NCBI RefSeq assembly: GCF_000711885.1
Contig: NZ_JONK01000027.1
Span: 1 to 64,000, forward strand
Direction: 5' to 3'
DNA length: 64,000 nt
Source: Chromobacterium haemolyticum DSM 19808
Lineage (GTDB): Bacteria > Pseudomonadota > Gammaproteobacteria > Burkholderiales > Chromobacteriaceae
Part shown: positions 1,352-29,120 of the stretch, in pieces
Layout of the letters: every line of letters begins with the position of its first letter
Numbering within the stretch: the stretch's first letter is position 1
Program-made: the position numbers and the translations under genes
The notes under the pieces: model-generated
Seen by the model: only the letters and a program-made list of their open reading frames with translations
What the model was told of the DNA's origin: nothing
Databases searched by the model: none

Positions 1352-1593
1352 GGCGTTGTCCTTTGGCGACGGTGTCGATGAAGGACATTATCGTCATCTT
1401 CGCGCGCGCGGCCCGGATGACGCGTGTCAGCGCCGACCGGGGCGCGTTGGCGGCCGCTTTTCTGTAAAGCGCGTTAAAAGACCGCCAGGACCCTGGTGGC
1501 GCATCCTTGCCCTCGTTCGATGGCCAGGCGCCGTCGGCAACCGTCATTGCGAGTGATCTCGCCTTTCTTCCCACGATGTCCAGGAGCCCGCCC

Positions 1594-2249: not shown

Positions 2250-2251
2250 GC

Positions 2252-3688: not shown

Positions 3689-3690
3689 TC

Positions 3691-4684: not shown

Positions 4685-4838
4685 AGATTTCGACGAAGCG
4701 CTGCTGACCGTGCTCGGCCTGCCGCCGTCGGAAATCGACGCGCTGGCGATGGACGACTACTGGTTTTGGTGCGAGGTGGCGGAGCGAGAGGTCCAGCGCC
4801 GCCACGAGCGCGAACAACAGTGGCTGGATCGAGACTGA
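4683..4838 (+). CDS. Out-of-frame extension of the tail chaperone (E'-like), possibly made by recoding
   Basis: The frame starting at positions divisible by 3 stays open from well inside the chaperone gene to TGA 4836-4838. It encodes a conserved-looking tail with FDEALLTVLGLP, MDDYWFWCEVAERE and a charged helix ending QWLDRD. This pattern is typical of the second half of P2 E+E'-type chaperones. Relative to the upstream gene it is shifted by +1 or -2, and Mu has been described as using -2. An ATG at 4749 could also start a 29-residue peptide on its own. No clean slip heptamer was seen; GGTGGGCG around 4660-4667 is a weak candidate. Confidence 0.6.
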   Translation, partial: KDFDEALLTVLGLPPSEIDALAMDDYWFWCEVAEREVQRRHEREQQWLDRD

Positions 4839-4962
4839 TTTTTCCTGCGCCGCGCGTCCGCGCGGCCCGGGGCCGGCCCATCCGTCAGGACGTCCGCCGG
4901 CCCCACCCAGAGCCGCCGGAGCTGGTTTGGCGGCCCTCCCCACATACTCACAGGCTAACACC

Positions 4963-7692: not shown

Positions 7693-7753
7693 GCCGCGGA
7701 GCCTGGCGCGCTCGCGCGCCGGGTCCTCTTTCCACCCATTCGGAGGGCAACCC

Positions 7754-8665
7754 ATGTACGCGGTACTGGGCAATATCGAGTTTGATCTGATCAGTTATTT
7801 CGACGGCCTGGAACAGCGCAGCGGCAGCGACTTCGCCGAACACGGCCGCATCGGCGGCAAGCCGGTGCTGCAATTCGTCGGCGACAAGCTGGACGAAATC
7901 CGCATCGACCTGGTGCTGCACGCCGCCTACTGCCAGCCGGACGAGGAGTTGCAAAAGCTGCAGGCGGCGAGGCTGCAGCACCAGGCCTTGGCGTTTGTGC
8001 TGGGCAACGGCGACTACAAAGGCCGCTTCGTCATCGCCGAACTGCAAAGCACCGGCCGTCAGACCGACCGCAGCGGCAGCCTGCTGGCGGTGGAGGCCCA
8101 GCTCAGCCTGCGCGAGTACGGTGGGGATGCCCCGCCCAAGCCCAAGCCGGCGTTGGCCAAGGCCGCGGCCAGCCTGCCCGCGGGCAAGCTCAAATTGCCA
8201 GCCGGGCTGGAGCGCTTCAAGGCCGATATCGCCGGCCTGGCCAAGACCGTGGCTCAAGTGAAAAGCGTGGTGGGCAAGGTCAAGACCGTGATCAACACCG
8301 CGCGAGAGCTGCGTCAGCTGGCTGGCCGCGACCCGGCTGCGGCTTTGGAAAAGCTGCCCGGCCTGCTCAAGGAGGTGCAGGCGGCGGCGCCCGGATTGCA
8401 AGTCAGCGTCGAGCAGATGGCCAAGTTCGAGCAATACAGCAAGCTGGCCGGCGACGCGGTGCGCGTGGGCCAGAGCCTGCAGCAGGCCAAGCTCAACATG
8501 ACGGCGATGGGCCGGCTGCTGACAGGCACCCCGGCCGGCCAGGTGCTGGACAAGCTGGCCGCCTGCGAAGAAATCAACGGCCGCTCCGAAGTGGCCTTGC
8601 GCGAACTGGCCGAGCCGCTGGCCGGCTTGGCCGCCAAGGCCGCGGTGCGGCGCATCCTGAGGTGA
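7754..8665 (+). CDS. P2 U-like tail protein with a long C-terminal extension
   Basis: Residues 1-120 match the P2 gpU family (tail terminator/completion): MYAVLGNIEFDLI, a GGKPVLQFVGDKLDEIRIDLVLH block and GDYKGRFVIAELQ. P2 U is about 160 residues, so the 303-residue length here reflects an added helical, Ala/Lys-rich half from about residue 130. Such longer U proteins occur in some prophages. GGAGG lies seven bases before the ATG. The gene for X follows after four bases. Confidence 0.85.
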   Translation: MYAVLGNIEFDLISYFDGLEQRSGSDFAEHGRIGGKPVLQFVGDKLDEIRIDLVLHAAYCQPDEELQKLQAARLQHQALAFVLGNGDYKGRFVIAELQSTGRQTDRSGSLLAVEAQLSLREYGGDAPPKPKPALAKAAASLPAGKLKLPAGLERFKADIAGLAKTVAQVKSVVGKVKTVINTARELRQLAGRDPAAALEKLPGLLKEVQAAAPGLQVSVEQMAKFEQYSKLAGDAVRVGQSLQQAKLNMTAMGRLLTGTPAGQVLDKLAACEEINGRSEVALRELAEPLAGLAAKAAVRRILR

Positions 8666-8669
8666 CGCC

Positions 8670-8885
8670 ATGTTCCTGAACCATGTGACCCAAGAAAACG
8701 AACGCTGGGACCAGATCGCCTGGCGCTATTACGGCGATGTCGGCCAAATGGCGCAGCTGATCGCCAACAACGCCCACATCCCCATAGGCGAAACCCTGCC
8801 CGCCGGCCTGACCCTGGCCATCCCGGTGCTGGAGGCCGCGGACAGCGAGGCGCTGGAGCAATTGCCGCCGTGGAGACGCTCATGA
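8670..8885 (+). CDS. Tail protein X (LysM-like)
   Basis: A 71-residue P2 gpX-like protein. It has the LysM-like pattern ERWDQIAWRYYGDVGQMAQLIANN and ends with the short PAGLTLAIPVLE strand. gpX is needed for tail assembly and lies between U and D in P2, as here. Its stop overlaps the D start by four bases (ATGA). Confidence 0.88.
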   Translation: MFLNHVTQENERWDQIAWRYYGDVGQMAQLIANNAHIPIGETLPAGLTLAIPVLEAADSEALEQLPPWRRS

Positions 8886-9946
8886 GCGACAGCCGCGCGC
8901 AGGAGGTGCCGACTCCGGCCTTCGAACTCAGCTACAACGGCAAATCCATCACCGCGGACATCGCCCGCCACGCGCTCAGCGTCAGCTATACCGACCACCT
9001 GAGCGGCGAGTCCGACGAACTGGACGTGGAGTTGGAGGACGTGGACGGGCGCTGGCTGGACGGCTGGTATCCGGACAAAGGCGCCACGCTGGCGCTCAAA
9101 CTGGGCTATCGCGGCGCGGTGCTGGTGGCGGCGGGCAGCTTCGACATCGACGAAGTGGAATACCGCTCGCCGCCGTCCACCGTGCGCATCCGTGCGCTGG
9201 CCACCGGCGTGCAGCATCCGCTGCGCACCAAGAACGGCCGCGCCTATGAACAGATCACCTTGCAAGCGCTGGCCCAGCGCGTCGCCAAGCGCCACCGGAT
9301 GAAGCTGCAGGGCAAGATCGAGACGGTGAACATCGACCGGCTGACCCAGTACCACGAAACCGATCTGCAATTCCTGCAGCGGGTGGCGGACCAGCACGGC
9401 TATGTCTGCAAGGTGATGGACAACAACCGCAAGCTGGTGTTTTGGAAACGCAGCGATCTGATGCAGAGCCCCAGCGTGCGTCGCTACACCCCGGCACAGC
9501 TGATGGCCTGGCAGGCGCAGGACCAGCTTAGCAAGGTGCCGGCCCAGGTGGACGTCAGCTATCACGATCCGGCCAAGCGCGCGCTGCGCACCGCCAGCGT
9601 GCGCGCCGACGCCAAGGCGCCGGGCGGCAAGGCCAGCAGCGCGGATATCGTCAAGCTCACCCGCAAGGCGGCCGGCAAGCGCCAGGCGGAGCAGATGGCG
9701 GCGGCGGAACTGGAACGGCGCCAGTTGGAGCGCACCCGCATGTCCATCACCGTGGACGGCTCGCCGCAGTTGGCCGCCGGCAGCAACATTGATCTGGACG
9801 GGTTCGGCAAATTGTCCGGCCGTTACCAGATCCAGCGCGCCAGCCACCGCATCAGCCGTCAGGACGGCTATGTCTGCGAACTGGAACTGAAACGGGTGAG
9901 CGCCGGCGCCGCCCAAAACACAGCAAACGAGAGGAACAAGCCATGA
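8882..9946 (+). CDS. Baseplate hub protein D (P2 late control D family)
   Basis: The 354-residue product belongs to the gpD/gp27-like hub family. It opens FELSYNGKSITADIARHALSVSYTDHLSGESDELDVELED, the family's usual N-terminal beta domain. A central YHETDLQFLQRVADQHGY is also typical. The hub forms the trimeric ring under the tube that holds the spike. ATG 8882 overlaps the X stop; a GTG at 8870 is less likely. The spike gene overlaps the 3' end by four bases. Confidence 0.9.
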   Translation: MSDSRAQEVPTPAFELSYNGKSITADIARHALSVSYTDHLSGESDELDVELEDVDGRWLDGWYPDKGATLALKLGYRGAVLVAAGSFDIDEVEYRSPPSTVRIRALATGVQHPLRTKNGRAYEQITLQALAQRVAKRHRMKLQGKIETVNIDRLTQYHETDLQFLQRVADQHGYVCKVMDNNRKLVFWKRSDLMQSPSVRRYTPAQLMAWQAQDQLSKVPAQVDVSYHDPAKRALRTASVRADAKAPGGKASSADIVKLTRKAAGKRQAEQMAAAELERRQLERTRMSITVDGSPQLAAGSNIDLDGFGKLSGRYQIQRASHRISRQDGYVCELELKRVSAGAAQNTANERNKP

Positions 9947-10596
9947 TGGACGTACCCCTGCCGGAAGCGCTGGCCACCCTCAAGTTCGGCAGCGTCTCCG
10001 CCGTGGATGCCAATACCCAGCGCGTGCGCGTGCGGCTGCCGGAACTGGGGCGGCTGCGTACTGCCTGGCTGCCGGTGCTCAGCCGCAAGAGCGGCCGCGA
10101 CAAGGACTACTGGCTGCCGGACATTGGCGAACAAGTGGCGGTGTTGTTGGACGCTCGCGGCGAGGACGGCGTGGTGTTGGGCGCCATCTTCTCCGCCGCC
10201 GATGCGGTGCCGGTGGCCAGTGTCGATAAATGGCATCGGCGCTTCGCCGACGGCGCGACGCTGGAGTACGATCGCGCGGCCCATCAGCTCACCGTCAGCG
10301 GCGGGGTGCAAAAAGTGGTGGTGGAAGCGGGGGCGGAAATTGTCCTCAAGGCCGGTGCCAAGGTCAGCATAGACGCGCCGGCGACGGAGATCAGCGGCAC
10401 CCTGCTGGTCAAGGGCCTGCTCACCTACCAGGGCGGCTTGAGCGGTTCCGGCGGCAGCGGCGCCAGCTTCTCCGGCAATATCAGCCAGAGCGGCGGCAGC
10501 TTCAACAACGCCGGCGGCGACGTGGTGGCCAGCGGCAAGAGCCTGGCCGGCCACGTGCATCCGGCGCCGGGCGGCATGACCGGCGGACCAGTGTAG
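9943..10596 (+). CDS. Baseplate spike / assembly protein V
   Basis: The 217-residue product is a gpV/gp45-type spike. The N-terminal OB-like domain has FGSVSAVDANTQRVRVRLPELG and DYWLPDIGEQVAVLLD. The second half is a repetitive beta prism with Gly/Ser-rich repeats. It ends GHVHPAPGG, like the HxH metal-site tip of such spikes. It would pierce the target envelope. GAGAGGAACA precedes the ATG. It is the last gene of the module here; the wedge genes that normally follow V are absent. Confidence 0.9.
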   Translation: MMDVPLPEALATLKFGSVSAVDANTQRVRVRLPELGRLRTAWLPVLSRKSGRDKDYWLPDIGEQVAVLLDARGEDGVVLGAIFSAADAVPVASVDKWHRRFADGATLEYDRAAHQLTVSGGVQKVVVEAGAEIVLKAGAKVSIDAPATEISGTLLVKGLLTYQGGLSGSGGSGASFSGNISQSGGSFNNAGGDVVASGKSLAGHVHPAPGGMTGGPV

Positions 10597-11746: not shown

Positions 11747-12772
11747 ATGTCATTGCAACAGTCTGTCTCCGTCAGCTCGCGCTGGGGGTGGCTGGTTCTG
11801 GCTTGCGCCGCCGCCGGCGTCCAGGCCGCGGACATGCCGGAGGCTTCCGCCGCCGCCGCGCTCAAGGTTTTGAAGAGCACGCCGGCGGGGCGTCACAGCT
11901 ATTACACCGGCGGGGTGCACAACACCGTCGGCTGTCTGTTGCCGGGCAGCTGCGTCTATCCGCGCAAGCCCGGCGAACCCAGCGATCCGCTGTTTCCTGA
12001 ATGGTGGGTCAGCGACTGGACCATGTATCGCATCTTCAATCAGGCGGCGATCAAGGAATACCCGCCGCCGTACGCCTCGCCGCCTGCCGGGATGAGCGAG
12101 GGCCAGGATTACGAAACGTCCTACGGCGCCAGCTATTACGACTCCAGTTATGTGCCGGCGGACGGCGATGGCCGCGGCGCGATGATGGAGCATTATGAAA
12201 AACGCTGCCTGCCCATCTTCCCCGGCAGCAATCATTACAGCTGCTCCTTTGTATCGCTGGGCAACAAGGCTTATTTCCTGCGCTACGCGGACCGACCCAA
12301 GGGCACGCCGCAGTGCTGTCAGTTCTCCTTGGACAACCACCCGCCGCGTCGAGATTTCATCAAGCATCTGCCGTACAACGCCGCGCAGAGCACCCACTTG
12401 AACGGCAGCGTCCAAGCGTACTCGCGCGTGGTGCAGCCGGGCAGCATCCTGTTTGGCTACGCCTTCTACAAACAGCCAACGCGCGACGGCGGCAAGGGCG
12501 CGCCGTACCGGCACCCGCAGTCCTTCTTCTTCTCCGGCGATCCAGGCTCGCCGCCGGACGCGCCCATGGTCAGCCAGAACTACAGCCACTTCCGTGCGCA
12601 GAAACCGGACCCGAAACAGACCTGGATGAAGGTGGCCGAGATGTGCCCGGCCAAGCCGGAATGGTGCTGCCTGTTCGCCACCGATTGCCCGGACAAGGGC
12701 AAGGCGGACGCGCCGGCGGCCGACAAGGCCAACGCCCAACCCGACCCGAGCTGGGCCACTTTGCAGCCGTAA
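11747..12772 (+). CDS. Secreted Cys-rich protein of unknown function, first gene of the VioB-like operon
   Basis: The 341-residue product has a signal peptide (about residues 1-27, hydrophobic WGWLVLACAAAGVQAA), so it should be exported. The mature part is rich in Tyr, Pro and Cys, with pairs such as QCCQF and EWCCLF and phrases HNTVGCLLPGSC, FPEWWVSDWTMYRIFNQAA. No known domain was recognised. ATG 11747 is preceded by AAGGAGCA. The next gene starts ten bases after its stop, so the three genes 11747-15825 probably form one operon. The Cys pairs may form disulphides in the periplasm. Confidence 0.8.
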   Translation: MSLQQSVSVSSRWGWLVLACAAAGVQAADMPEASAAAALKVLKSTPAGRHSYYTGGVHNTVGCLLPGSCVYPRKPGEPSDPLFPEWWVSDWTMYRIFNQAAIKEYPPPYASPPAGMSEGQDYETSYGASYYDSSYVPADGDGRGAMMEHYEKRCLPIFPGSNHYSCSFVSLGNKAYFLRYADRPKGTPQCCQFSLDNHPPRRDFIKHLPYNAAQSTHLNGSVQAYSRVVQPGSILFGYAFYKQPTRDGGKGAPYRHPQSFFFSGDPGSPPDAPMVSQNYSHFRAQKPDPKQTWMKVAEMCPAKPEWCCLFATDCPDKGKADAPAADKANAQPDPSWATLQP

Positions 12773-12782
12773 AGGAACCGCC

Positions 12783-14750
12783 ATGAGTTATCTCGACTCT
12801 CCCCGCATTCACTTTTCCGGCTACTTCCAGTCGGACGTATCCACCGTCAACAACAATGTCTGTTATTACGATTCCGACGCCTTCAAGGAGCAATATCAGC
12901 AGTACGGCGACGGGGGCTGGAACCCGCAGGGCACCGCCATTTTCCGCTTCGTCAGTTGCAGCGTCACCGGCGCCAGCCTCAACGGCAAGCCGGTCACCAG
13001 CAGCGCGCAGGACCCCATCATCGGCATGGCGATGGAAAATGCGGACTGCCGCGCGCCGGGCAAGATGGCGGACCTGGACCCGCAACAGCAAATGGTGTCC
13101 CAGATATGGGCGCTGCAAGTGCGGCTGACCGATAATGTCGAGCGCGCGCTGTTCATCGGCGACATGCTGCCGGTGGGCTTCATGAATTTATGGAAGCGTC
13201 AGCAAACCCAGGCATTCAACGATCAAACGCTGGCCGCCAACTACCAGTCCATCCTGGAAAACGTGCAATGGCAGGGGCACAGCCACTCGCCGGTGCTGGA
13301 GGCAATGCGCAAAGCCACCCAGCACGGCCTGCTGGCCATCGAATTCAATCTGTTCGGCTACGGCCGGGACCCCTCTATTCCACGCTACACCCAGGGCCAC
13401 ATCGTCGGCACCATCGGTCCTTACCATGAGCGCGAGCCCAAGCATTTCATCTTGGGCCGGCAAATGACGGCGCAGGTGGACAGCAACAATATGATGAAGC
13501 CGACTGAAGGGGTTTACAGCTTCCAGTGCAAGAATCATCCGGACCGTCAAACCCTGACCGCGGACTTTGGCAACGCGCTGCCCATCATTGACGCCAGCGG
13601 CGCCTTCGTTGATCTGGGGCCGTTGACCATGGCGGTGTTGAAACAGCCCGCGCATGCGCCAATCAGCGGCACGCTGGCTAAGGACCAGGTCATCGTGCTG
13701 GGCCAACTGGCCTACGACCCGCCGCAGCCGGGCGCGGCGCCCAGCGACGAGCCGTCCGAGTGGTTTCGCCAGACCGCGGCGATCCAGGACTTCGACTATG
13801 CCGCCATCCCCGGCGCCCGGCAGGCGCTGGAAGCCTGTCCGCTGTTGTTGCTGAGCCCGGCCGACGACGGCTATCAGGTGCTGGTGCAAGAATCCATAGA
13901 CGGTCTCTACGTGCGTTCCGACGAGCATGTGCTGCGGCTGAACGCCGGTCAGCAGCTTCCGGTCAGCTTCTTCGCCAGCCGCTACGGCCAGCCGCTGTCC
14001 GCCGAAGTCGACGTAGGCTTGCTGCCCAAGGACAAGAACCCAATGGGCGGCGGCAATGCTTTGCCGCCGTCGCCGCCCAACAACAAACCGGTGTTGCCGC
14101 CCAGGATCAGCGTGCCGGTGGACGCGGTGCAGTATCCGGCTTCCATCCACACCAACGACAGCGGTCATGGCCGGGCGGTGATCAGCGCGATTCCGGCCGG
14201 GCCGGGCAATCCGCGCGGCTATATCGACGGCCAGCTCTACGGCATTGGCTACCAGTTGCGGCTGCAGCCGCAAGACTACATCGACAACCCTTGGAATTTC
14301 GTCAGCGTGCTGGCCTTCGACCGCGTGCCGGTGCCGGAACATCCCACCTGGTACGACGATATCCGGCCCATCTTCGTCCAGTACGGCAACCTCTATCCCA
14401 TCATGAGCAAATACGTGGTGGACCTGGGCGATTACGACTCCGTGGTGCGCCATGTGGACATCCTCAAACTGGCGTTCGCCCTGCCGATGAGCGACCCCAA
14501 CCACATGCCGGTGACTCGCGACCTGTCCGACGACAAGCGCGCCATCATCCTCAAATGGTTGAAGCAGACGGATGCCCAGGGCAAACCGCTCAAGGGAGCG
14601 CCGCCGCTCAAGGCCGCCGTCGTGCCCGCGCCGCGGGAGGTGGACACCGATGCGGTGGCGGTGGCATTGGACGATCTGCAAATCGCCGGCAAGAGCGCGG
14701 TGGTGTTGCAACTCCAGGCGCGACGCAAAGCCGCGTCGTCCAAGGATTGA
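12783..14750 (+). CDS. VioB N-terminal-half-like protein
   Basis: The 655-residue product begins SYLDSPRIHFSGYF, close to the SILDFPRIHFRG start of VioB, the large enzyme that with VioA makes the iminophenylpyruvate dimer in violacein synthesis. Near residues 537-595 it has LYPIMSKYVVDLGDYDSV followed by MPVTRDLSDDKRAIILKWL. This parallels the VioB segment just before its ferritin-like half (YPFMSDKVFSL, MPSTRELS, FLKYL). The protein stops there; the ferritin-like half is encoded by the next gene, 13 bases on. No signal peptide is seen. Reaction and substrate are unknown. Resemblance is by remembered VioB sequence, not alignment software. Confidence 0.8.
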   Translation: MSYLDSPRIHFSGYFQSDVSTVNNNVCYYDSDAFKEQYQQYGDGGWNPQGTAIFRFVSCSVTGASLNGKPVTSSAQDPIIGMAMENADCRAPGKMADLDPQQQMVSQIWALQVRLTDNVERALFIGDMLPVGFMNLWKRQQTQAFNDQTLAANYQSILENVQWQGHSHSPVLEAMRKATQHGLLAIEFNLFGYGRDPSIPRYTQGHIVGTIGPYHEREPKHFILGRQMTAQVDSNNMMKPTEGVYSFQCKNHPDRQTLTADFGNALPIIDASGAFVDLGPLTMAVLKQPAHAPISGTLAKDQVIVLGQLAYDPPQPGAAPSDEPSEWFRQTAAIQDFDYAAIPGARQALEACPLLLLSPADDGYQVLVQESIDGLYVRSDEHVLRLNAGQQLPVSFFASRYGQPLSAEVDVGLLPKDKNPMGGGNALPPSPPNNKPVLPPRISVPVDAVQYPASIHTNDSGHGRAVISAIPAGPGNPRGYIDGQLYGIGYQLRLQPQDYIDNPWNFVSVLAFDRVPVPEHPTWYDDIRPIFVQYGNLYPIMSKYVVDLGDYDSVVRHVDILKLAFALPMSDPNHMPVTRDLSDDKRAIILKWLKQTDAQGKPLKGAPPLKAAVVPAPREVDTDAVAVALDDLQIAGKSAVVLQLQARRKAASSKD

Positions 14751-14763
14751 GGGAGAACAGGCC

Positions 14764-15825
14764 ATGATTCGCTTGCAACGCAGCATCATCCACGGCATCC
14801 GCGCCGCCAAGACCGCGGCGGAACTGCACTACTATCTGCAAAACGCGGTGGAGCTGGAGCACGCCACCATTCCCCCCTATCTGACCGCGATGTTTTCGCT
14901 GAAGCCGGGCTACAACGTGGAAATCCGCCAGCTGATCCACAGCATCGTGATGCAGGAAATGCTGCACATGTGCATCGCCGGCAACATCCTGATCGCCATC
15001 GGCGGCCATCCGCAGATCAACAAGCCGCCGTTCATCCCCAAATATCCGGGGCCGCTGCCAATGTCCATCGGCGGCGACGACTTCATCGTCGGCATCGAAC
15101 CGTTCTCCAAGGAGCTGGTGTTCAACACCTTCATGGTGATCGAGGAACCGGAAGACCCAGTGCCGGTGGAAACCCCCAAGCTCGCCGCCGAGGAAGAGCC
15201 GGACTACGCCACCATCGGCGAGTTCTACGACGCGATCAAAAAGAAGATCAAGGAACTGGGCGACGGCATCTTCATTCCAGCCACCGTGCCCAAGCAGGTG
15301 CTGGGCTGGTTCTCGCCGGAGCGCTTGTTCCCCATCACCGACGTGGCCAGCGCCCTGCACGCCATCAACATCATCATCGTTGAAGGCGAGGGCACCAGCA
15401 CCAACCCGAACCAATCTCCGGGCAACCCGGCGCACTACTACAAGTTCGGTGAAATCTATTATGGCCGCCGCATCGTCAGCACCCCGGACGGCGGCTACGC
15501 CTATGCCGGCGCCGAAGTGCCCTACGACCCGGCCGGGGTCTATCCGATGGTGTCCAATCCGCAGGACTACGACTACCAGGACAACACCCAGGCCAAGGTG
15601 AGGGTGGAGGCCTTCGCCTACAGCTACAGCAGCCTGCTCAACGCCTTGCACCAGGCCTTTAACGGCGAGCCCAAGCGTATCGATACCGCCATCGGCCTGA
15701 TGTACGACCTCAAAGTGCAAGCGGTGAGCCTGATGGAAACGCCGGTGGCGCCGGGCAGCGAGAAAACCGCCGGGCCCAGCTATCGCTACGTCAACACGCA
15801 GGGGGGGATGGATACCAGCGATTAA
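14764..15825 (+). CDS. Ferritin-like protein similar to the VioB/RebD C-terminal domain
   Basis: The 353-residue product corresponds to the ferritin-like iminophenylpyruvate dimer synthase domain (VioB, RebD, StaD). Residues 20-40 read ELHYYLQNAVELEHATIPPYL and residues 61-77 contain VMQEMLHMCIAGN. Glu30/Glu32 with Glu65 and His68 form an ExxH-type metal site as in these enzymes. Later segments (FNTFMVIEEPEDP, FYDAIKKKIKELGD) also fit the fold. ATG 14764 has GGGAGAA upstream. It sits 13 bases after the VioB-N-like gene, so the two may form a complex equal to one split VioB. An oxidative role on an aromatic substrate is inferred. Confidence 0.85.
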   Translation: MIRLQRSIIHGIRAAKTAAELHYYLQNAVELEHATIPPYLTAMFSLKPGYNVEIRQLIHSIVMQEMLHMCIAGNILIAIGGHPQINKPPFIPKYPGPLPMSIGGDDFIVGIEPFSKELVFNTFMVIEEPEDPVPVETPKLAAEEEPDYATIGEFYDAIKKKIKELGDGIFIPATVPKQVLGWFSPERLFPITDVASALHAINIIIVEGEGTSTNPNQSPGNPAHYYKFGEIYYGRRIVSTPDGGYAYAGAEVPYDPAGVYPMVSNPQDYDYQDNTQAKVRVEAFAYSYSSLLNALHQAFNGEPKRIDTAIGLMYDLKVQAVSLMETPVAPGSEKTAGPSYRYVNTQGGMDTSD

Positions 15826-15850
15826 GCGCCGCTCGCCATTGCGCAAGGCC

Positions 15851-15881
15851 AAAGCGGTCCGGCGGATGCCGGACCGCGTTT
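15851..15881 (+). terminator. Possible terminator after the VioB-like genes
   Basis: GCGGTCCGGC and GCCGGACCGC form a strong stem followed by a short GTTTG tract 25-55 bases after the ferritin-like gene. The weak T run makes it less certain. If it works, the ebo operon downstream is a separate transcript. Confidence 0.55.
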
Positions 15882-15979
15882 GCCATCTCATCGGAGCAAG
15901 CGCACTGGCCGCGGGATACGGAGCCAAGCTTAGGCGGGCCGCAGCGCCGGACCGTCGACGCGCAGCAGATTTAAGAACC

Positions 15980-16082
15980 GCTAACAAAACCTCGCAGAGA
16001 ACCTGAGCCAAGGCGTGCCGACGCAGGCAGTACAAAGTGGTACGACAAGGAGGCGCAACGCGGGATCAGGGGTTTTGTTAGC
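15980..16082 (-). repeat. Intergenic repeat family A, copy 1
   Basis: Begins GCTAACAAAACC and ends GGTTTTGTTAGC, a 12-base terminal inverted repeat around a partly palindromic centre (CGACGCAGGCAGTAC and GTACGACAAGGAGGCGCAACG). It lies between the ferritin-like gene and eboD. Its orientation is opposite to the copies at 27395, 29027 and 58765. Confidence 0.8.
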
Positions 16083-16117
16083 GGGTCGAAAGAGCCGGTT
16101 TTTTTAGGAGCAGAGCC

Positions 16118-17350
16118 ATGCCACTGCCAGTCAGCAAGCCAGACCTCGGCGACGCCGCAAGCGGCCGCAGCGCGGGGGCCATGACCATGCAGCGCTTCAG
16201 CGTGCCGTTCGAATACCCGGTGTATTTCGGCCGCGGCCTGCTGAGCGACCCTGGCAACCCGCTGTTGCGGCAAGCCATTTGCCGGCGCGAGCCGGAACGG
16301 CGTCATCGGTTCGTGGTTCTGATTGACCAGGACGTGGCCGCCGCCCACCCGCGGCTGCCCGCCGCCTTCGAGCGTTACGCCCGGCGTCACAGCGACGTGC
16401 TGGAGCTGGCCGCGCCGCCGCGGCTGACCATGGGCGGCGAAGCTTGCAAGAACGATCCGGAGCAGCTGTTCGCGCTGCAAAGCTGGTTGCAGCAATGCCA
16501 TGTGGACCGTCACAGCTGCCTGGTCATCGTCGGCGGCGGCGCCCTGCTGGACATGGCCGGCTTCGCCGCGGCCACTACCCACCGCGGCGTGCGCGTGGTG
16601 CGCATGCCCACCACCGTGCTGGCGCAGAACGATTCCGGCGTGGGTGTCAAAACCGCGATTAACGCCTTCGGGGCCAAGAACTTCCTCGGCGCCTTCGCGC
16701 CGCCGTTCGCCGTGCTCAACGACTACGACTTCATCGCCAGCCTGCCGCGCCGAGACCGCATCGCCGGCATCGCCGAGGCGGTGAAAGTGGCGGCGATACG
16801 CGACCGCGCCTTCTTCGACTGGCTGGACGCCAACGCCGAAGCGCTCACCGACGGAGACGACGAAGCGATGCAATGGATGATACGGCGTTGCGCCGAACTG
16901 CATCTGAACCACATCGGCCAGGGGGGCGACCCCTTCGAGTTCGGCAGCGCCCGTCCGTTGGACTTCGGCCACTGGGCCGCGCACAAGCTGGAAGCGCTGA
17001 GCGCTTACGCCTTGCGCCACGGCGAGGCGGTGGCGATAGGGCTGGCGCTGGACTGCCGCTACGCGGTGTTGGCAGGCCTGCTGCGCGAACCGGCGCAACT
17101 GAGTTTGCACCGGCTACTGCTGCGGCTGGGCTTTTCGTTATGGCACCCGGCGTTGGACTGGCGCGACGGCGAGCGTCGCCAGGTGCTGGCCGGGCTGGAT
17201 GAGTTCCGCGAACACCTAGGCGGCGAACTGACCATCACCCTGCTGCAGCGTTTGGGGCAGGGGGTGGAAGTGCACGCCATCGATGCGGATCGAATGAACG
17301 CGGCCATAGACTGGCTGCGCGACAGGAGCGAAGACCATGTTGCTGCTTGA
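16118..17350 (+). CDS. eboD: EboD: 3-dehydroquinate synthase-family sugar-phosphate cyclase
   Basis: The 410-residue product is a 3-dehydroquinate synthase homologue. The NAD-binding region has VIVGGGALLDMAGFAAATTHRG (from about residue 136), then RMPTTVLAQNDSGVGVKT. Metal ligands fit the family: Glu in IAEAVKVA (about 219), His in GHWAAHK (about 284) and His in RHGEAVAIG (about 301). Among such enzymes the member heading an ebo operon is EboD, whose product is not established. AGGAG lies seven bases before ATG 16118. The 3' end overlaps eboE by 14 bases, showing tight coupling. Confidence 0.9.
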   Translation: MPLPVSKPDLGDAASGRSAGAMTMQRFSVPFEYPVYFGRGLLSDPGNPLLRQAICRREPERRHRFVVLIDQDVAAAHPRLPAAFERYARRHSDVLELAAPPRLTMGGEACKNDPEQLFALQSWLQQCHVDRHSCLVIVGGGALLDMAGFAAATTHRGVRVVRMPTTVLAQNDSGVGVKTAINAFGAKNFLGAFAPPFAVLNDYDFIASLPRRDRIAGIAEAVKVAAIRDRAFFDWLDANAEALTDGDDEAMQWMIRRCAELHLNHIGQGGDPFEFGSARPLDFGHWAAHKLEALSAYALRHGEAVAIGLALDCRYAVLAGLLREPAQLSLHRLLLRLGFSLWHPALDWRDGERRQVLAGLDEFREHLGGELTITLLQRLGQGVEVHAIDADRMNAAIDWLRDRSEDHVAA

Positions 17351-18572
17351 CCCTCAACAACGGCCGGACAGTCTGCCCGCCGCCACTCTGCCCGCGGTCC
17401 ACATGAGCTACTGCACCAATATCCACCCCGGCGAAAGCTGGCAGGAAATGCGCGCTCAACTGGGCTTCCACCTGCCGCGGATCAAGGCGCGCGTGGCGCC
17501 GGACCGGCCGTTCGGCATTGGGCTGCGGTTGTCCGCGCTGGCCGCGCGCCAATTGGAGGAGGAGCCGGCGCAGGCGGAATTCCGCGATTTTCTGGCGGAA
17601 CACCAATGCTATGTGTTCACCCTCAACGGCTTCCCCTTTGGCGCCTTCCATCGGCAAGCGGTGAAGGAAGCGGTTTACCTGCCGGACTGGCGGGACCCGC
17701 AGCGGCTGAACTACAGCAACCGGCTGGCTCAGCTGCTGGCCGCGCTGCTGCCGCCGGAACTGGAATACGGCAGCGTCAGCACCGTGCCCGGCGGCTATCG
17801 CCAACATCTGAGCGGCGACGGCAGCGGCGCGCTGTGGATCGCCACCCATCTGCTGGAGCACGCCGCCTTCCTGCATCGGCTGCGGCAGGACAGCGGCCGC
17901 CGCATCGTGCTGGCGCTGGAACCGGAGCCGGATTGCCTGCTGGCCACCAGCGAAGACGCGGTCGCCTTCTTCGAGCTGCATCTATTGAGCCGGGCCGCGC
18001 TCAACCAAGTGGCCAAATGGTGCAATGTCAAACGCGAAGAAGCCGAAGCCATCGTGCGGCGGCACCTGGGCGTGTGCCTGGACGCCTGCCACGCCGCGGT
18101 GGAGTACGAACAGCCGGAAGACGCGGTGGCGCGGCTGGATCAGGCCGGCATCGCCATCGCCAAGCTGCAGCTCAGCGCCGGCCTGCGCGTGACTCGGCCG
18201 GACCGGATGGCGGCGGAAGCACTGCGCGCCTTCGCCGAAGACACCTATCTGCACCAAGTGGTGGCGCGGCGCGGCGACGATCTGTGGCGCTACCCGGACC
18301 TGCCGGCGGCGCTGGCGGCTCTGCCGCGACAGCCGGCCGACGAATGGCGCATCCACTTCCACGTGCCCATCTGCCACGCCGCGCTGGCGCCGTTCGCCAG
18401 CACCCAGGACTTTCTGTCGCGGTTGCTGGCTCTGCAACGCCAGCGGCCGCTGAGCGGCCACCTGGAAGTGGAAACCTATAGCTGGGGCGTGCTGCCCCCG
18501 GCCCACCGTCAGGGCGACCTGGGCGAAGCCATCTGCCGGGAGCTGCAATGGGCGGAGGGCCAGCTGCGATGA
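17337..18572 (+). CDS. eboE: EboE: TIM-barrel metabolite-traffic protein
   Basis: The 411-residue product matches EboE, a xylose-isomerase-like TIM barrel. Diagnostic phrases are HMSYCTNIHPGESW near the start, YVFTLNGFPFGAFH in the middle, and LEPEPDCLLATSEDAVAFF followed by GVCLDACHAAVEYE. The acidic and His residues suit metal binding. It is thought to act in the metabolite modification or export carried out by Ebo proteins; the exact reaction is unknown. It overlaps eboD by 14 bases and its stop overlaps eboC by four. Confidence 0.9.
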   Translation: MLLLDPQQRPDSLPAATLPAVHMSYCTNIHPGESWQEMRAQLGFHLPRIKARVAPDRPFGIGLRLSALAARQLEEEPAQAEFRDFLAEHQCYVFTLNGFPFGAFHRQAVKEAVYLPDWRDPQRLNYSNRLAQLLAALLPPELEYGSVSTVPGGYRQHLSGDGSGALWIATHLLEHAAFLHRLRQDSGRRIVLALEPEPDCLLATSEDAVAFFELHLLSRAALNQVAKWCNVKREEAEAIVRRHLGVCLDACHAAVEYEQPEDAVARLDQAGIAIAKLQLSAGLRVTRPDRMAAEALRAFAEDTYLHQVVARRGDDLWRYPDLPAALAALPRQPADEWRIHFHVPICHAALAPFASTQDFLSRLLALQRQRPLSGHLEVETYSWGVLPPAHRQGDLGEAICRELQWAEGQLR

Positions 18573-19510
18573 GCGGCCAGCGCGCCCTGCCCATTCCCAA
18601 GACCAGCGCCCGGCGGAGGCTGTCGCGGCGGCATGCGCGCCAGACCCGCCGGCGCGTGGCCGGGGTCTGGTCGCTGGCGCTGCGGCTGGGTCGGGTATCC
18701 AACCTGCCCACGGTGTGGAGCAACGTCCTCGCCGGCGCGGTATTGTCCGGCCACGCCGTGGCCGGCGGGCCGCTGGCCTTGCTGCTGCTGTCGCTGTCCT
18801 TGATCTACGTGGCCGGCATGTATCTGAACGATGTCTGCGACCGCCACATCGACGCGCGCGAACGGCCGGAACGGCCGATTCCCGCCGGGCTGGCGTCGGC
18901 GCGGCTGGTGTTGCTGGCCGGCGCCGCCCAGCTCGCGGTCGGCGTCGCCCTGTTGGCGGCGCTGGGCCTCTCCGCCTTGTTGGCCGGCCTGTGCCTGGCC
19001 GCCACCGTGGTGCTCTACGACCTCTGGCACAAGCACAATCCGCTCAGCCCGCTGCTGATGGGTTTGTGCCGGATGCAGGTTTATCTGATCAGCGGCCTGG
19101 CGCTGGGCGCTGGAGCTTTATCCGGCCCGCTGTTGCTGGCGGCGCTGGCGCTGCTGGCTTATCTGATCGCACTGACTTACGTGGCCAAGCAGGAAGGCCG
19201 CGCCGGGCTGGGGCGGCTGGCGCCGCTGCTGGGCCTGGCCGCGCCGCCGCTCTACCTGCTCAGCCAACCGTTCCAGCCCTGGGCGCTGCCCTTTTTGCTG
19301 CTCAGCCTGGGGTGGAGCGCGCATTGCCTGCGGCTGGCCTGGCCCGGACCCGGCCGCGACATGCCGCGCGCCGTCGGCGGCCTGATCGCCGGCATCGCGC
19401 TGGCGGACGCTTTGTTCATCGCCGCCGCGGGCCAGCCGCAGTGGGCAGCGTTGGCGGTTTTGGCCGCCTGGCTGACCCGGACATGGCAACGCCGGGTGCC
19501 GGGCACTTGA
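18569..19510 (+). CDS. eboC: EboC: UbiA-family prenyltransferase, integral membrane
   Basis: The 313-residue product is a UbiA-superfamily membrane protein with eight or nine hydrophobic helices. The first Asp-rich motif is NDVCDRHIDARERPERPIPAG. The second active-site region is VLYDLWHKHNPLSPLLMGLCR. Both motifs keep the residues needed for magnesium-pyrophosphate binding, so it is probably active on a prenyl diphosphate. The start was set at ATG 18569, overlapping the eboE stop and preceded by GGAGGG; ATG 18548 is possible. The N-terminus is Arg-rich. It fits EboC in position and family. Confidence 0.9.
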   Translation: MSGQRALPIPKTSARRRLSRRHARQTRRRVAGVWSLALRLGRVSNLPTVWSNVLAGAVLSGHAVAGGPLALLLLSLSLIYVAGMYLNDVCDRHIDARERPERPIPAGLASARLVLLAGAAQLAVGVALLAALGLSALLAGLCLAATVVLYDLWHKHNPLSPLLMGLCRMQVYLISGLALGAGALSGPLLLAALALLAYLIALTYVAKQEGRAGLGRLAPLLGLAAPPLYLLSQPFQPWALPFLLLSLGWSAHCLRLAWPGPGRDMPRAVGGLIAGIALADALFIAAAGQPQWAALAVLAAWLTRTWQRRVPGT

Positions 19511-19526
19511 ACGGAGAATCTGCGCG

Positions 19527-20225
19527 ATGGAAACGCAAACCATGCTGGCGGATCAATTGCACGCCAGCCTGCTGGACGCGGCGGACCGCCACAACGCCGC
19601 CCAGGCGCTGGTGTGGTTGGATGCCTGTCGTCGGCTGACCGCCGATGCGCCGGATCCCGCCGCCTGTCGCCGCTTGTTTAGCGTGGCCAACCGGCAACTG
19701 GCGGCGCTGACCCTGCTGCCCAAGGCCGCGATCAAGGCCTTGCAAGCCCAACGCGTGCTGGCGGCGGAGGCCTGGTCGCCCGGCGACGCCGGCCGCGCCC
19801 TGCTGCTGTTGCGGGCCTTGGCCGCCGGCGCGGATCCGGCGCTGGCGTTCGATCTGTATCGCGGCGGCGACAGCCTGGAACAGCAGGCGGTGGTCAAGGC
19901 GCTGATCCTGCTGCCCAAGCCGGAAGACTGGCTGGCGCTGGCCACCGACGCCAGCCGCAGCCACGTGGCCGGCGTGTTCCAGGCGCTGGCTTGCGACAAC
20001 GCCTACCCGGCGCAACAGTTTCCCGATCTCAATTTCAACCAGCTGGTGCTCAAGGCCTTGTTCACCGGCGCGCCGGCGCGGCGTATCGCCGGCCTGGAAC
20101 GGCGCTGGAGCCCAGAGCTGGAACACATGGTGGCCGCCTACGCCAGCGAGCGACGCGCCGCCGGCCGCAGCGTGTCCGACGACGTCGTTTTCCTACTGCA
20201 AGGACTGCATCATGAAAATGTTTGA
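19527..20225 (+). CDS. eboA: EboA-like protein
   Basis: The 232-residue helical protein matches EboA, whose most recognisable part is the C-terminal CDNAYPAQQFPDLNFNQLVLKALF (about residues 150-173). EboA has no known fold-based activity. It is soluble, has no signal peptide, and overlaps eboB by 14 bases, so it is translationally coupled to the next gene. The start ATG 19527 follows eboC by 16 bases with GGAG upstream. Confidence 0.88.
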   Translation: METQTMLADQLHASLLDAADRHNAAQALVWLDACRRLTADAPDPAACRRLFSVANRQLAALTLLPKAAIKALQAQRVLAAEAWSPGDAGRALLLLRALAAGADPALAFDLYRGGDSLEQQAVVKALILLPKPEDWLALATDASRSHVAGVFQALACDNAYPAQQFPDLNFNQLVLKALFTGAPARRIAGLERRWSPELEHMVAAYASERRAAGRSVSDDVVFLLQGLHHENV

Positions 20226-21102
20226 TCCGCACATCCACATGACTTCCCGCACCACCGACGACTACCAGGCGATGAGCCGGGCCGGCATCAGCGTGGTGGT
20301 GGAGCCGGCGTTCTGGATGGGCCAGCCGCGGCGGCACGTCGGCAGCTTCGACGACTACTTCCTGTCGCTGCTGGGCTGGGAGCGCTTCCGCGCCGCGCAA
20401 TTCGGCATCCGCCACTTTTGTACCTTGGGCCTCAACCCCAAGGAAACCAACAACCCGGACGTGGCTGACGGCGTGATGGCGCTGCTGGAGCGCTACTTGG
20501 ACAAGGACGGCGTGGTGGCGGTGGGGGAAATCGGCTTCGACGACGAAACCCCGGCCGAGGAGCGCTACTTCGCCCGTCAGCTGGAACTGGCGATAGCGTT
20601 CGACCTGCCGGCGCTGGTCCACACGCCGCATCGAGACAAAAAGGCCGGCACTCTGCGCAGCCTGGCGCTGGTGCGCGACAGCGGCATTGCGCCGGAGCGG
20701 GTGCTGATCGACCACAACACCGAAGAAACCCTGCCGCTGGTACTGGACTCCGGCTGCTGGGCCGGCCACTCCATCTACCCCAACACCAAGATGGACGAAC
20801 CGCGGATGGTGGCGCTGGTGCGCCAGTACGGCAGCGAGCGCATCATCATCAACAGCGCCGCCGACTGGGGCGTCAGCGATCCGCTTAAAGTACCCAAAAC
20901 CGTAGAGGCGATGCGCGCCGCCGGCATCGCCGAGCGCGACATCGAAACCATCGTCTGGCGCAATCCGCTGGACTTCTTCGCCCAGAGCGGCCGCTTGGAC
21001 ATAGAAGAAGCCAACAGCCCGCTGGCGGTGGACCAGCGCCGGCTGTATCAGGGCAATTCCGTGCTGCGTGGTCAAAATCCGCAGGTGGACATCGTGGAGT
21101 GA
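20212..21102 (+). CDS. eboB: EboB: TatD-like metal-dependent hydrolase
   Basis: The 296-residue product is a TatD-family amidohydrolase. It begins MKMFDPHIHMTSRT with the HxH metal ligands. VGEIGFDDETP supplies the bridging Glu, LVHTPHRDK and IDHNTEET further His ligands, and INSAADWGVSD the late Asp. EboB is the name for this member in ebo operons. In TatD relatives the activity is hydrolysis of phosphate or amide bonds; its Ebo substrate is unknown. ATG 20218 would also work as the start. Confidence 0.9.
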   Translation: MKMFDPHIHMTSRTTDDYQAMSRAGISVVVEPAFWMGQPRRHVGSFDDYFLSLLGWERFRAAQFGIRHFCTLGLNPKETNNPDVADGVMALLERYLDKDGVVAVGEIGFDDETPAEERYFARQLELAIAFDLPALVHTPHRDKKAGTLRSLALVRDSGIAPERVLIDHNTEETLPLVLDSGCWAGHSIYPNTKMDEPRMVALVRQYGSERIIINSAADWGVSDPLKVPKTVEAMRAAGIAERDIETIVWRNPLDFFAQSGRLDIEEANSPLAVDQRRLYQGNSVLRGQNPQVDIVE

Positions 21103-21106
21103 CATC

Positions 21107-22522
21107 ATGCAACGCACACTCGTTCTGAACGTGGTGGGCCTGACGCCGCAGCTGCTGCGGTACGCGCCGCACTTGATCCGGTTGGCGGAACGCGGCGCGC
21201 AGCGCCCGCTCATGGCGGTGACGCCGGCGCTGACCTGCCCGGCGCAAGCCACCTATCTGACCGGCCAGCTGCCGCAGGCGCACGGTTGCGTCGCCAACGG
21301 CTGGTATTCGCGAGAGCTGGCCGAGCCCTTGTTCTGGAGACAGAACAACGCCTTGATTCAGGGCGAGAAACTCTGGCACGAAGCCCGGCGCCTGCACGCC
21401 GGCTTCAGCTGCGCGCAGTTGTTCTGGTGGTACAACATGTATGCCGACGTGGACTGGAGCGTGACGCCGCGCCCGATCTACAAGGCCGACGGCCGCAAGA
21501 TTCCCGACTTCTACTGCAACCCGCCGGAACTGCACGCGGAGTTGCGTCAAAAGCTGGGCGATTTTCCCTTGTTTCACTTTTGGGGGCCGGCGGCGGATAT
21601 CCGCTCCAGCCGCTGGATCGCCGACTGCGCGCTGCATCTGTACCGCTCGCGCCAGCCCACGCTGACCCTAGTCTACCTGCCGCATCTGGATTACTGCCTG
21701 CAGCGCTTGGGGCCGGATCATCCGGACGTGGCGGCGGAGGTGGCGGCGGTGGATCAGTTGTGCGGGGAGTTGATCGAGGAGGCTGACCGGGACGGCAGCC
21801 GCGTGATCGTCTTGTCCGAGTACGGCGTCACGCCGGTCAGCAACGACATCGCCATCAACCGCGTTCTGCGCATGGCCGGTTGGCTCAAGGTGCGGGAGGA
21901 GCAGGGCGAGGACAAGCTGGACTGCGGCGCGTCGGCGGCTTTCGCGCTGGCGGATCATCAGATCGCTCATGTCTATGTGCGCCAGCCGGCGTTGGTGCCG
22001 GAGGTGAAGGCTTTGTTGCTGGAGCTGGAGGGGGTGGAAATGGTGTTGGACCAGGCCGGCAAGCGCTTGCTGGGGCTGGATCATCCGCGTTCCGGCGAGC
22101 TGGTGGCGGTGAGCCGGCCGGATCGCTGGTTCAGTTATTACTATTGGCTGGACGATGCGCACGCGCCGGATTTCGCTCGCACGGTGGATATTCACCGTAA
22201 GCCGGGCTATGACCCGGTGGAGTTGTTTTTGGACCCGGCTTTAAGTTGGCCGAAGTTGGACATTGCCTGGACGTTGTTGAAGCGCAAGTTGGGGATGCGG
22301 AGTTTGTTGGAGGTGATTCCGCTGGATCCGTCTTTGGTGAGGGGGGCGCATGGACGTCCCACGCTGAATCCGGAGCATGGTCCATTGATGATTAGTTCTT
22401 TGCCGGACAGTTTGCCGTCGGGGGCGGTGCCGGCGACGGCGGTGCGGGACATCATCATGGATCATATGTTTGGGGAGGTGGAGACGCGGCTGGCGTACGG
22501 GGCGCATGGGGTGATGGAGTAG
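21107..22522 (+). CDS. eboF: EboF: alkaline-phosphatase-superfamily phosphodiesterase
   Basis: The 471-residue product is a type I phosphodiesterase/nucleotide pyrophosphatase-like protein. The nucleophile region is TPALTCPAQATYLTGQLPQAHG, where the Thr in QATYLTG should be catalytic. Further metal ligands lie in PHLDYCLQRLGPDH and VLSEYGVT. Length and position match EboF. ATG 21107 is four bases after the eboB stop with GGAG upstream; an earlier in-frame ATG at 21068 would lie inside eboB. The last 300 bases use TTG and GGG/GTG codons far more than the rest, an unexplained composition change. Confidence 0.88.
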   Translation: MQRTLVLNVVGLTPQLLRYAPHLIRLAERGAQRPLMAVTPALTCPAQATYLTGQLPQAHGCVANGWYSRELAEPLFWRQNNALIQGEKLWHEARRLHAGFSCAQLFWWYNMYADVDWSVTPRPIYKADGRKIPDFYCNPPELHAELRQKLGDFPLFHFWGPAADIRSSRWIADCALHLYRSRQPTLTLVYLPHLDYCLQRLGPDHPDVAAEVAAVDQLCGELIEEADRDGSRVIVLSEYGVTPVSNDIAINRVLRMAGWLKVREEQGEDKLDCGASAAFALADHQIAHVYVRQPALVPEVKALLLELEGVEMVLDQAGKRLLGLDHPRSGELVAVSRPDRWFSYYYWLDDAHAPDFARTVDIHRKPGYDPVELFLDPALSWPKLDIAWTLLKRKLGMRSLLEVIPLDPSLVRGAHGRPTLNPEHGPLMISSLPDSLPSGAVPATAVRDIIMDHMFGEVETRLAYGAHGVME

Positions 22523-26364: not shown

Positions 26365-27393
26365 TCAGCCTGGCTGCTGGGTTGGCGCCGGGCGGTAAGG
26401 CAGGCGGATGCGGGTGATGAAACGATCACCGTCCAGCCGGGCGCTGAGCGAGGCCTCGGCGTCGAAATATAGCTCCAGCCGTTCGGCCAGGTTGTCCAGC
26501 GCCATATGGTGTCCGGGTGTGTCCGCGGCGGGTTCCGGGTTGACCGGGTTGCTCAGCGTCAGCTCCAGCAGTTGTTCATGCCGGCGCGCCTGGATGCGGA
26601 TCTCGCCGCCGTCGGCCAGCCGTTCTATACCGTGGAACACCGCGTTTTCCACTAGCGGTTGCAGGATCAGCGGCGGCAGCGCGGCGTCCAGCGGCGCTTG
26701 CACGTCCCAGCTCACTTGCAGGCGCGCGCCCAGCCGCTCGGCCTCGATCGCCAGATACATGGCCGCCAATTCGATTTCGCGGCCCAGCGTGGATTGTCGC
26801 GCCGGGTCGCCCAGTTGGGCGCGGAACAGGTCGGCCAGGTTTTCCAGCACCATTTCCGCCTTGTCCGGCTGTTTGCCGATCAGGGCGATGGCGGCGTTGA
26901 GGCTGTTGAACAGGAAATGAGGACGGATGCGGGCCTGCAACGCGATCAGCCGGGCCTCGGACAAGGCCGGGGACAGCGCGCGCGCGCGCAGATTGAGGTA
27001 GTGCTGCATCAGCCCGCCCACCGCGCCGGCCAGCAGCACCTGGCCCCAGGGCATGGGCGCCAGCGGGTTGAGCAGGCGGCCGCAGAAGGCGAAGGAGAGC
27101 AGACAGATGGCGGCGGCGGCCAGCGCGGCGCGGCGTCCGTGGTGGAGGCGGCGGCCCAGCAGGGCCAGCAGGCCCAGGCTAAGCAAGGCGCCGGGCACCA
27201 GCAGGCTGGACAGGCGCAGCAAGCGCCAGGGCAGCGGCTCTCCGCCGTCGTCCAGCAACAGGCCGCCCAGCAGGAACAAGCCCAGCAGCAGCAGCGCGCG
27301 CAGCAGCACGCCCAGGTTGCGGTAGTCGGGCAGGTCGGGCGGGGACGGTAGCGGCATGGCGGCGCGGGGAGGAGCGAAATAGGATAGCCGCAT
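26365..27393 (-). CDS. algZ: AlgZ/FimS-type sensor histidine kinase
   Basis: About 342 residues. After a Pro-rich start come LPDYRNLGVLLRALL and four hydrophobic helices. The LytS-type kinase core follows: ALQARIRPHFLFNSLNA (phospho-His in RPHF) and an ATPase with LQPLVENAVFHGIE and GHHMALDNLAERL. This is the AlgZ/FimS family that governs pili and surface behaviour with AlgR. The gene is divergent from argH as in Pseudomonas, but no algR follows; the next gene is a TMEM175 protein. The start is uncertain: ATG 27393 or ATG 27357. Family-A repeat 27395-27507 abuts it. Confidence 0.87.
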   Translation of the reverse strand: MRLSYFAPPRAAMPLPSPPDLPDYRNLGVLLRALLLLGLFLLGGLLLDDGGEPLPWRLLRLSSLLVPGALLSLGLLALLGRRLHHGRRAALAAAAICLLSFAFCGRLLNPLAPMPWGQVLLAGAVGGLMQHYLNLRARALSPALSEARLIALQARIRPHFLFNSLNAAIALIGKQPDKAEMVLENLADLFRAQLGDPARQSTLGREIELAAMYLAIEAERLGARLQVSWDVQAPLDAALPPLILQPLVENAVFHGIERLADGGEIRIQARRHEQLLELTLSNPVNPEPAADTPGHHMALDNLAERLELYFDAEASLSARLDGDRFITRIRLPYRPAPTQQPG

Positions 27394-27394
27394 T

Positions 27395-27507
27395 AGAGCG
27401 GCTAACAAAACTCCTGATGCTGCGTTGCGCCGACTTGCCGTACTCAAGTACTGCCTGCGTCGGCGCGCCTTGCCTCAGACGTGAAACTGACTTTTGTTAG
27501 CCGCTCT
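27395..27507 (+). repeat. Intergenic repeat family A, copy 2
   Basis: Bounded by AGAGCGGCTAACAAAA and TTTTGTTAGCCGCTCT apart from one mismatch, with the inner arms GCGCCGACTTGCCGTAC and GTCGGCGCGCC. It fills the space between the divergent algZ and argH genes, so it lies in a promoter region instead of after genes. Confidence 0.85.
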
Positions 27508-29021: not shown

Positions 29022-29026
29022 TACCC

Positions 29027-29120
29027 GCTAACACAACCCCTGATCCTGCGCGCCTTACGTGTACTGCCTGCGTTGGCGCGCCTTGGCTCAGGTTCTCTGC
29101 GCGGTTTTGTTAGCGGCTCT
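29027..29120 (+). repeat. Intergenic repeat family A, copy 3
   Basis: Begins GCTAACACAACCCCTGAT and ends GTTTTGTTAGCGGCTCT, with GTACTGCCTGCGTTGGCGCGCC inside. It lies five bases after the argH stop and abuts family-B copy at 29121. Confidence 0.82.

Follow-up and report, generated by a model that had tools for sequence, protein, structure and literature searches.

The closest described systems to the locus reported here are the ebo operons of cyanobacteria and Pseudomonas and the VioB-type enzymes. In Nostoc, the same monomer of scytonemin builds up whichever single ebo gene is deleted (main text of PMC6282210), suggesting a role of the Ebo proteins in transport rather than in serial synthesis. 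The same text reports that insertions in the eboA, eboD or eboE homologues of the Pseudomonas EDB cluster abolish the repelling of C. elegans, and it presents the EDB cluster of P. fluorescens NZI7 (Burlinson 2013, as described in Klicki 2018) as a full ebo set with open reading frames (ORFs) carrying signal peptides. VioB is reported to contain haem b and to have catalase activity (PMC9705886). The locus is a block of nine genes at 11747-22522 of the window, the 64,000-nucleotide stretch of Chromobacterium haemolyticum DSM 19808 (contig NZ_JONK01000027.1, positions 1 to 64,000) that was analysed here. It joins a VioB-like enzyme split over two genes (VioBN and FER) and a secreted protein (SEC) to an ebo operon. 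The recurrence of this partnership in unrelated bacteria, with differing gene orders, suggests that a compound is made and exported there by a route not yet described. It is rather probable that the block forms a single metabolite system made up of two modules, a VioB-like enzyme module and an ebo export module, and the linkage of the modules as one functional system is, taken by itself, very likely.

Layout of the block and gene assignments

All nine genes are open on the + strand. The ORFs and the family searches agree with the original prediction, which had read a secreted protein, a VioB-N-like protein, a ferritin-like protein and eboD-E-C-A-B-F on the same strand. The genes are:

SEC, 11747..12772, + strand: secreted protein of an undescribed family, with a Sec-type N-terminus and a predicted LolA/ependymin/VioE-like fold
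VioBN, 12783..14750, + strand: homologue of the VioB N-terminal part, by hhalign to VioB
FER, 14764..15825, + strand: ferritin-like PF12902 protein, homologue of the VioB C-terminal part
eboD, 16118..17350 (start at 16118 or 16181), + strand: sugar-phosphate-cyclase family (PF01761/PF24621, NF004852)
eboE, 17337..18572, + strand: NF035939
eboC, 18569..19510 (a longer start at 18548 is possible), + strand: UbiA-like prenyltransferase (PF01040, NF035940 as best hit)
eboA, 19527..20225, + strand: NF035938
eboB, 20212..21102, + strand: TatD-like metallohydrolase (PF01026)
eboF, 21107..22522, + strand: type I phosphodiesterase family (PF01663)

The six-gene eboA-F set is complete in the window by Pfam and NCBIfam. 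EboE passes its NCBIfam cut-off (NF035939, 455 vs 250 bits), as do the EboA domain (NF035938, 139.8 vs 50 bits) and EboD (NF004852, 549 vs 333 bits), and EboF matches PF01663 with an E value of 1.4e-62. EboA does not reach the EboA_family model (114.4 vs 320 bits). EboC scores below the cut-off of its own model (NF035940, 122.6 vs 250 bits), so it is named by best hit and position only. SEC and VioBN are 10 bp apart, VioBN and FER 13 bp, and the ebo genes overlap or nearly touch; the 292 bp between FER and eboD form the sole long gap in the block. Values of dN/dS (the ratio of non-synonymous to synonymous substitution rates) between the window and C. haemolyticum are 0.033 for SEC, 0.136 for VioBN, 0.029 for FER and 0.065 for eboE, with five of the 27 SEC rows (cut or fused frames) left out of the run.

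The split VioB-like pair

VioBN and FER are homologous to successive parts of VioB. In profile-profile alignment with hhalign, columns 1-610 of VioBN match VioB 1-578 (probability 98.0, E 2.8e-13) and FER matches VioB 596-932 (probability 97.3, E 1.7e-11). FER has a PF12902 domain at residues 25-232 (E 6.1e-64; 216.3 bits, gathering cut-off 22.3). Six of its residues, E32, E65, H68, E127, E209 and H224, are identical in all 63 FER sequences and equal E612, E672, H675, E728, E806 and H819 in nine of nine VioB; they would fit ferritin-type metal ligands. Among the columns conserved at 95% or more, 27 of 48 in FER (63 sequences) share their residue with the nine Chromobacterium VioB, and 30 of 61 in VioBN have the same residue in VioB. 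VioBN and VioB also share an N-terminal motif and, towards the end of the N part, the motifs YP.M and MP.TR.L. The predicted VioBN model has a pLDDT (predicted local distance difference test) of 90.2, and neither protein has export signs in its sequence.

The pair was collected in one genome per species, and the 79 loci treated below are those most similar to the query among 169. The nearest named VioBN among these, in a scan that may omit near-copies, is that of Chromobacterium haemolyticum H4137 (95% identical). FER is present in 77 of the 79 loci, the other two being cut by contig ends. VioBN and FER are fused into one gene, with products of 936, 898 and 945 aa, in a member of the Chloroflexota, one of the Myxococcaceae and a Roseivirga metagenome-assembled genome (MAG). 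A fusion of 906 aa is also found in a Chromobacterium genome (L049:7830-10550), where the genes beside it look like those of a homogentisate pathway.

The collinear alignment of both parts and the shared candidate ligands uphold the original reading of a split VioB. As judged from these alignments, VioBN and FER are two parts of a split VioB-like enzyme that keeps a candidate metal site. They belong together, and neither is VioB by the curated cut-off: against the 1250 bits of the VioB equivalog TIGR04492, VioBN scores 18.7 and FER 18.2 bits in a single-sequence search. The DSM 19808 genome has no VioB match, whereas VioB is over the cut-off in nine of the 19 Chromobacterium genomes sampled (DSM 19808 included).

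Linkage to the ebo genes

Within Chromobacterium, EboE occurs in 12 of the 19 genomes and VioBN in the same 12. The VioBN-FER pair lies directly 5' of eboD in all 12, even where VioBN identity is only about 30%. eboF has moved to the other side, pointing away, in three of these genomes, and a contig ends inside eboB in L040. Two VioBN clades are found before eboD: clade A (the window and its kin) and clade B (three genomes, of which L043 is the one in the tree described below). Eight other ebo-positive genomes carry clade B as a second, unlinked pair; the seven ebo-negative ones do not have it.

Across the 79 loci, ebo genes lie within 10 kb of VioBN in 21, with three or more ebo genes in 20, and in an all-against-all clustering of the loci the six commonest neighbour families are ebo families. 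The ebo-linked loci come only from Pseudomonadota and Cyanobacteriota and have about ten gene orders, seen in Chromobacterium, Oxalobacteraceae (three main orders), Photobacterium, Azospirillum, Nitrospirillum, Cupriavidus (shared with Pseudoduganella flava), Anabaena, Amazonocrinis and Symploca. A Lysobacterales MAG is also ebo-linked, with eboF at the contig edge. Three Oxalobacteraceae loci have SEC, pair A, pair B and eboDECAB in a row, an array that looks like a fuller form of the block. An ABM-glyoxalase fusion protein is encoded in 19 of the 79 loci (for example L122:9129-9926) and follows eboB in L043 (L043:15687-16442).

The original prediction had proposed a search for genomes with both gene sets and for conservation of their order. 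That search found the partnership in two phyla, in about ten differing orders. The proposed ebo link holds in all 12 EboE-bearing Chromobacterium genomes and in 21 of the 79 named loci, and the two sets did not prove to lie at unrelated loci with no co-occurrence.

The VioBN tree has 87 sequences (L109 and L134 dropped, fusions cut to the N part, five Chromobacterium rows and the window added). It includes four Chromobacterium pair-B rows only; the remaining pair-B copies were placed by their position and the similarity of their sequences. Explaining the ebo label on this tree takes 14 changes, of which well-supported branches force at least 10, whereas shuffled labels take 22.6 (quick method). 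Loci with the label thus group together on the tree, and yet the label has come or gone repeatedly, a pattern expected of modules whose joint presence is of use. These at least ten gains or losses, the roughly ten gene orders in two phyla, and the two VioBN clades that fill the slot before eboD all argue against a neighbourhood by chance or shared ancestry, in which two unrelated gene sets would merely share one island. Such a neighbourhood is very improbable, even though the genus may have inherited the linkage seen in the window, the two modules are separated by a terminator-like hairpin and a repeat, and the pair is missing from many ebo loci elsewhere. A random Pseudomonadota sample (398 genomes, DSM 19808 included) has EboE in three, VioBN in three and both in two; without DSM 19808 the overlap is only one of two and two (chance 0.01, weak), which is also what a chance neighbourhood would allow.

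The gap between FER and eboD

Two elements lie in the 292-bp gap:

Terminator-like hairpin, G+C-rich, 15854..15877, + strand: read from the sequence by eye
Dispersed MITE-like (miniature inverted-repeat transposable element) repeat with inverted ends, about 115 bp, 15972..16090, + strand: from genome-wide matches

The hairpin is visible by eye in the window and in all four close relatives compared. The repeat has 40 scored matches in the 5.03-Mb DSM 19808 genome, itself included, and its end occurs eight times in the window at up to two mismatches (0.09 expected). At the FER-eboD site it is present in L035 (C. haemolyticum) and absent in L036, L037 and L038, which have the same gene order; since it is missing there in three of four close relatives, it is most simply a mobile-like insertion in this lineage. 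The FER-eboD spacing is only 21-38 bp in four other species (gene calls in relatives, here and in the P. cichorii-type and LodA-vio loci below, are from a simple codon-usage finder). Because the repeat looks like a lineage insertion and the spacing is this short elsewhere, a single SEC-VioBN-FER-ebo transcript is plausible; in the C. haemolyticum group, transcription may in part stop between the modules. The original concern that the hairpin and repeat part two transcripts was right about the elements, which are present, and is weakened as to the separation.

Further window copies of the repeat, possibly a MITE, lie at 27393-27478, 29023-29120, 35956-36034 and 58756-58866. Directly 5' of the block, positions 1576-10596 read as a phage-tail or tailocin-like gene run (from the ORFs only).

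The secreted protein and P. cichorii-type loci

SEC has a Sec-type N-terminus followed by 10 cysteines in its translation. It is present in 26 of the 79 VioBN loci, in line with the secreted partner of the original prediction. The family is conserved and exported; neither Pfam (23 members scanned) nor NCBIfam (window member only) nor the PDB sequences gave a match. SEC is predicted to share the LolA/ependymin/VioE fold, of the hydrophobic-cargo type.

P. cichorii MAFF 302096 (L202) and a genome of the same class (L182) have eboD-C-A-B-E-F and then five further genes. In L202 (L182) these encode a 385 (367)-aa protein, a 795 (790)-aa VioBN-like protein, SEC, a 430-aa protein and a 595 (602)-aa VioBN-like protein. 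The P. cichorii SEC is 58% identical to that of the window. Judged by eye, the 385- and 430-aa proteins of that genome begin with signal-like sequences. The VioBN-like genes are divergent (E 3e-14 to 3e-19), and FER was not found in the L202 and L182 stretches examined. Their eboD genes (L202:5169-7052, L182:17497-19317) encode more than 600 aa and, by eye, include an additional N-terminal stretch that looks membrane-like. L182:3555-4622, at the end of the ebo-VioBN-SEC locus, has weak strictosidine-synthase/NHL matches; NHL-type proteins are also encoded among the scytonemin (scy) genes. Since the P. cichorii-type loci fit the description of the nematode-repelling EDB cluster, the favoured product of the block is a protective, cell-associated metabolite for which VioB-like chemistry would provide the synthesis and the Ebo proteins the export.

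Oxidase partners

A berberine-bridge-type (BBE) flavin adenine dinucleotide (FAD) oxidase is encoded directly upstream of the unlinked pair B in five of eight genomes:

BBE oxidase 5' of the second VioBN-FER pair, L048:4347-5948 (the DSM 19808 genome, C20), also in L212-L215; it aligns in three pieces in L215

LodA or LodB is found in five of the 79 VioBN loci (LodA in four), and a FER-type match adjoins LodA, by coordinates, in eight of nine LodA-bearing Chromobacterium genomes. Two violacein-bearing Chromobacterium genomes carry a PF12902-like gene directly next to LodA and LodB (L217:4661-8895, L218:4514-8740). This run ends within about 100 bases of vioE, with vioA-E at L217:8964-16288.

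PF12902 genes beside LodA-type oxidases, and the haem b and catalase activity given for VioB in PMC9705886, would also suit a different role, in which VioBN-FER (with SEC) is a peroxide- or radical-handling protector against oxidase by-products and the ebo link reflects shared stress induction only. A general protector is not expected to keep the whole VioB N-terminal part, nor to track ebo in 12 of 12 against none of seven Chromobacterium genomes, and this role is improbable.

Proposed function

In the favoured reading of a cell-associated protective metabolite, VioBN and FER would act in the cytoplasm as a single complex. Its task would be the oxidative coupling or rearrangement of an oxidised precursor, probably aromatic or of keto/imino type, that comes from an oxidase whose gene lies elsewhere. 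The Ebo proteins would then pass the product, a hydrophobic compound, through the inner membrane, in the way reported for the monomer of scytonemin, and SEC in the periplasm may receive it and carry or finish it. The product would remain cell-associated, plausibly as a grazer deterrent. VioB-like oxidative chemistry by VioBN-FER is a tentative assignment, with chances a little short of even.

It is also possible, if unlikely, that the ebo genes make an isoprenoid-cyclitol or a prenylated aromatic compound through the EboD cyclase and the EboC prenyltransferase, with VioBN-FER acting as an oxygenase-like tailoring enzyme and no dimerisation. An isoprenoid-cyclitol product is proposed in the main text of Yurchenko et al. 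(PMC5133447), an EboC homologue is described in that of PMC9235831 as farnesylating 8-hydroxyquinoline-2-carboxylic acid, and the ferritin-like ligands of FER suit oxygen chemistry too. The accumulation of one and the same monomer in every single Nostoc ebo deletion (main text of PMC6282210) speaks against such a synthesis, and so does VioBN occurring without EboE, as follows.

EboE is not in the locus stretch for 61 of the 79 loci. From these, 50 were chosen for a genome search, L098 and L138 were left out, and 48 were searched. EboE was found in 21 of the 48 (three with other ebo genes beside the pair) and not in the other 27, including the six Lysobacter-type rows L085, L086, L091, L092, L094 and L095; the enzyme module thus exists without ebo. 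The ebo genes, in turn, appear to be a set with several partners, the VioBN-FER module being one.

The absence of EboE from those 27 genomes also counts against a joint VioB-like and ebo system, and so do several other observations. The locus collection favours close kin of the query, and ebo genes were not seen in 58 of the 79 locus stretches, some of them short contigs. Among 20 EboE regions from genomes with the pair elsewhere, only L185, L202 and L200 show any part of the pair: FER at a contig end, a divergent VioBN with SEC, and one weak VioBN match (5e-10), respectively. A cyanobacterial sample has EboE in eight of 194 genomes and VioBN in one, the centre genome; the seven other cyanobacterial ebo loci have no pair within the stretch taken. 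Pfam and NCBIfam scans find no oxidase among the nine genes of the block. LodA has no match in the DSM 19808 genome, where flavin amino-acid oxidases elsewhere were not searched for, and BBE was not found beside three of the eight unlinked pairs B. For SEC, LolA and ependymin proteins score as high as VioE in the fold prediction, and no sequence similarity to VioE was seen (hhalign probability 0.4, E 0.14, with a two-row VioE profile that makes a weak test).

The dimeric aromatic amino-acid product of the original prediction is not supported, given the nine genes without an oxidase, a genome without VioB or LodA, and 27 of 48 VioBN genomes without EboE. A dimeric aromatic compound is a doubtful product. 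A bolder proposal is that the block represents a second, widespread ebo-dependent system besides scytonemin. Split VioB-like coupling in the cytoplasm, Ebo export, and a secreted VioE-fold protein that completes the product in the periplasm would then amount to the violacein scheme, VioB followed by VioE, with its two steps on opposite sides of the inner membrane, and would yield the cell-bound grazer deterrent of EDB-type clusters. This whole chain is speculative and, taken together, rather unlikely.

In the openly available literature, ebo was not found in print together with ferritin-like proteins, VioB or Chromobacterium. The main texts of PMC6282210 and PMC5133447 mention none of ferritin, VioB and Chromobacterium, and that of PMC9235831 mentions neither ferritin nor Chromobacterium. 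In the literature covered, the ebo cargo is worked out for scytonemin only, and a linked second module is a candidate cargo pathway in culturable bacteria. The block also suggests candidate genes for the nematode-repelling EDB compound. The naturally split VioB parts may help structural work, VioB being without a crystal structure according to the 2021 review PMC9705886.

Comparison with known systems

The LodA/LodB quinoprotein loci resemble the block in placing a PF12902 protein beside an amino-acid oxidase, and differ in that the DSM 19808 genome has no LodA match. The NZI7 EDB cluster was compared by description only: the ebo genes, SEC and exported-looking proteins of L202 and L182 fit that description, whereas the VioBN-like genes of these two loci are divergent and no FER was found in the stretches examined. 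With cyanobacterial ebo and scy genes, as given in the main text of PMC6282210, the block shares a complete eboA-F and an enzyme module with an exported partner beside it. Its partner is instead VioBN-FER-SEC, and none of the nine genes reads as scy, with no search by scy sequence made. With VioB, RebD and StaD (iminophenyl-pyruvate dimer synthase, TIGR04492; sequences compared for VioB, RebD and StaD by description) it shares the collinear two-part architecture, candidate ligands and motifs. The block's enzyme differs from these in having no oxidase among its nine genes, in scoring 18.7 against 1250 bits, in being split into two genes, and in being linked to ebo genes and a secreted protein.
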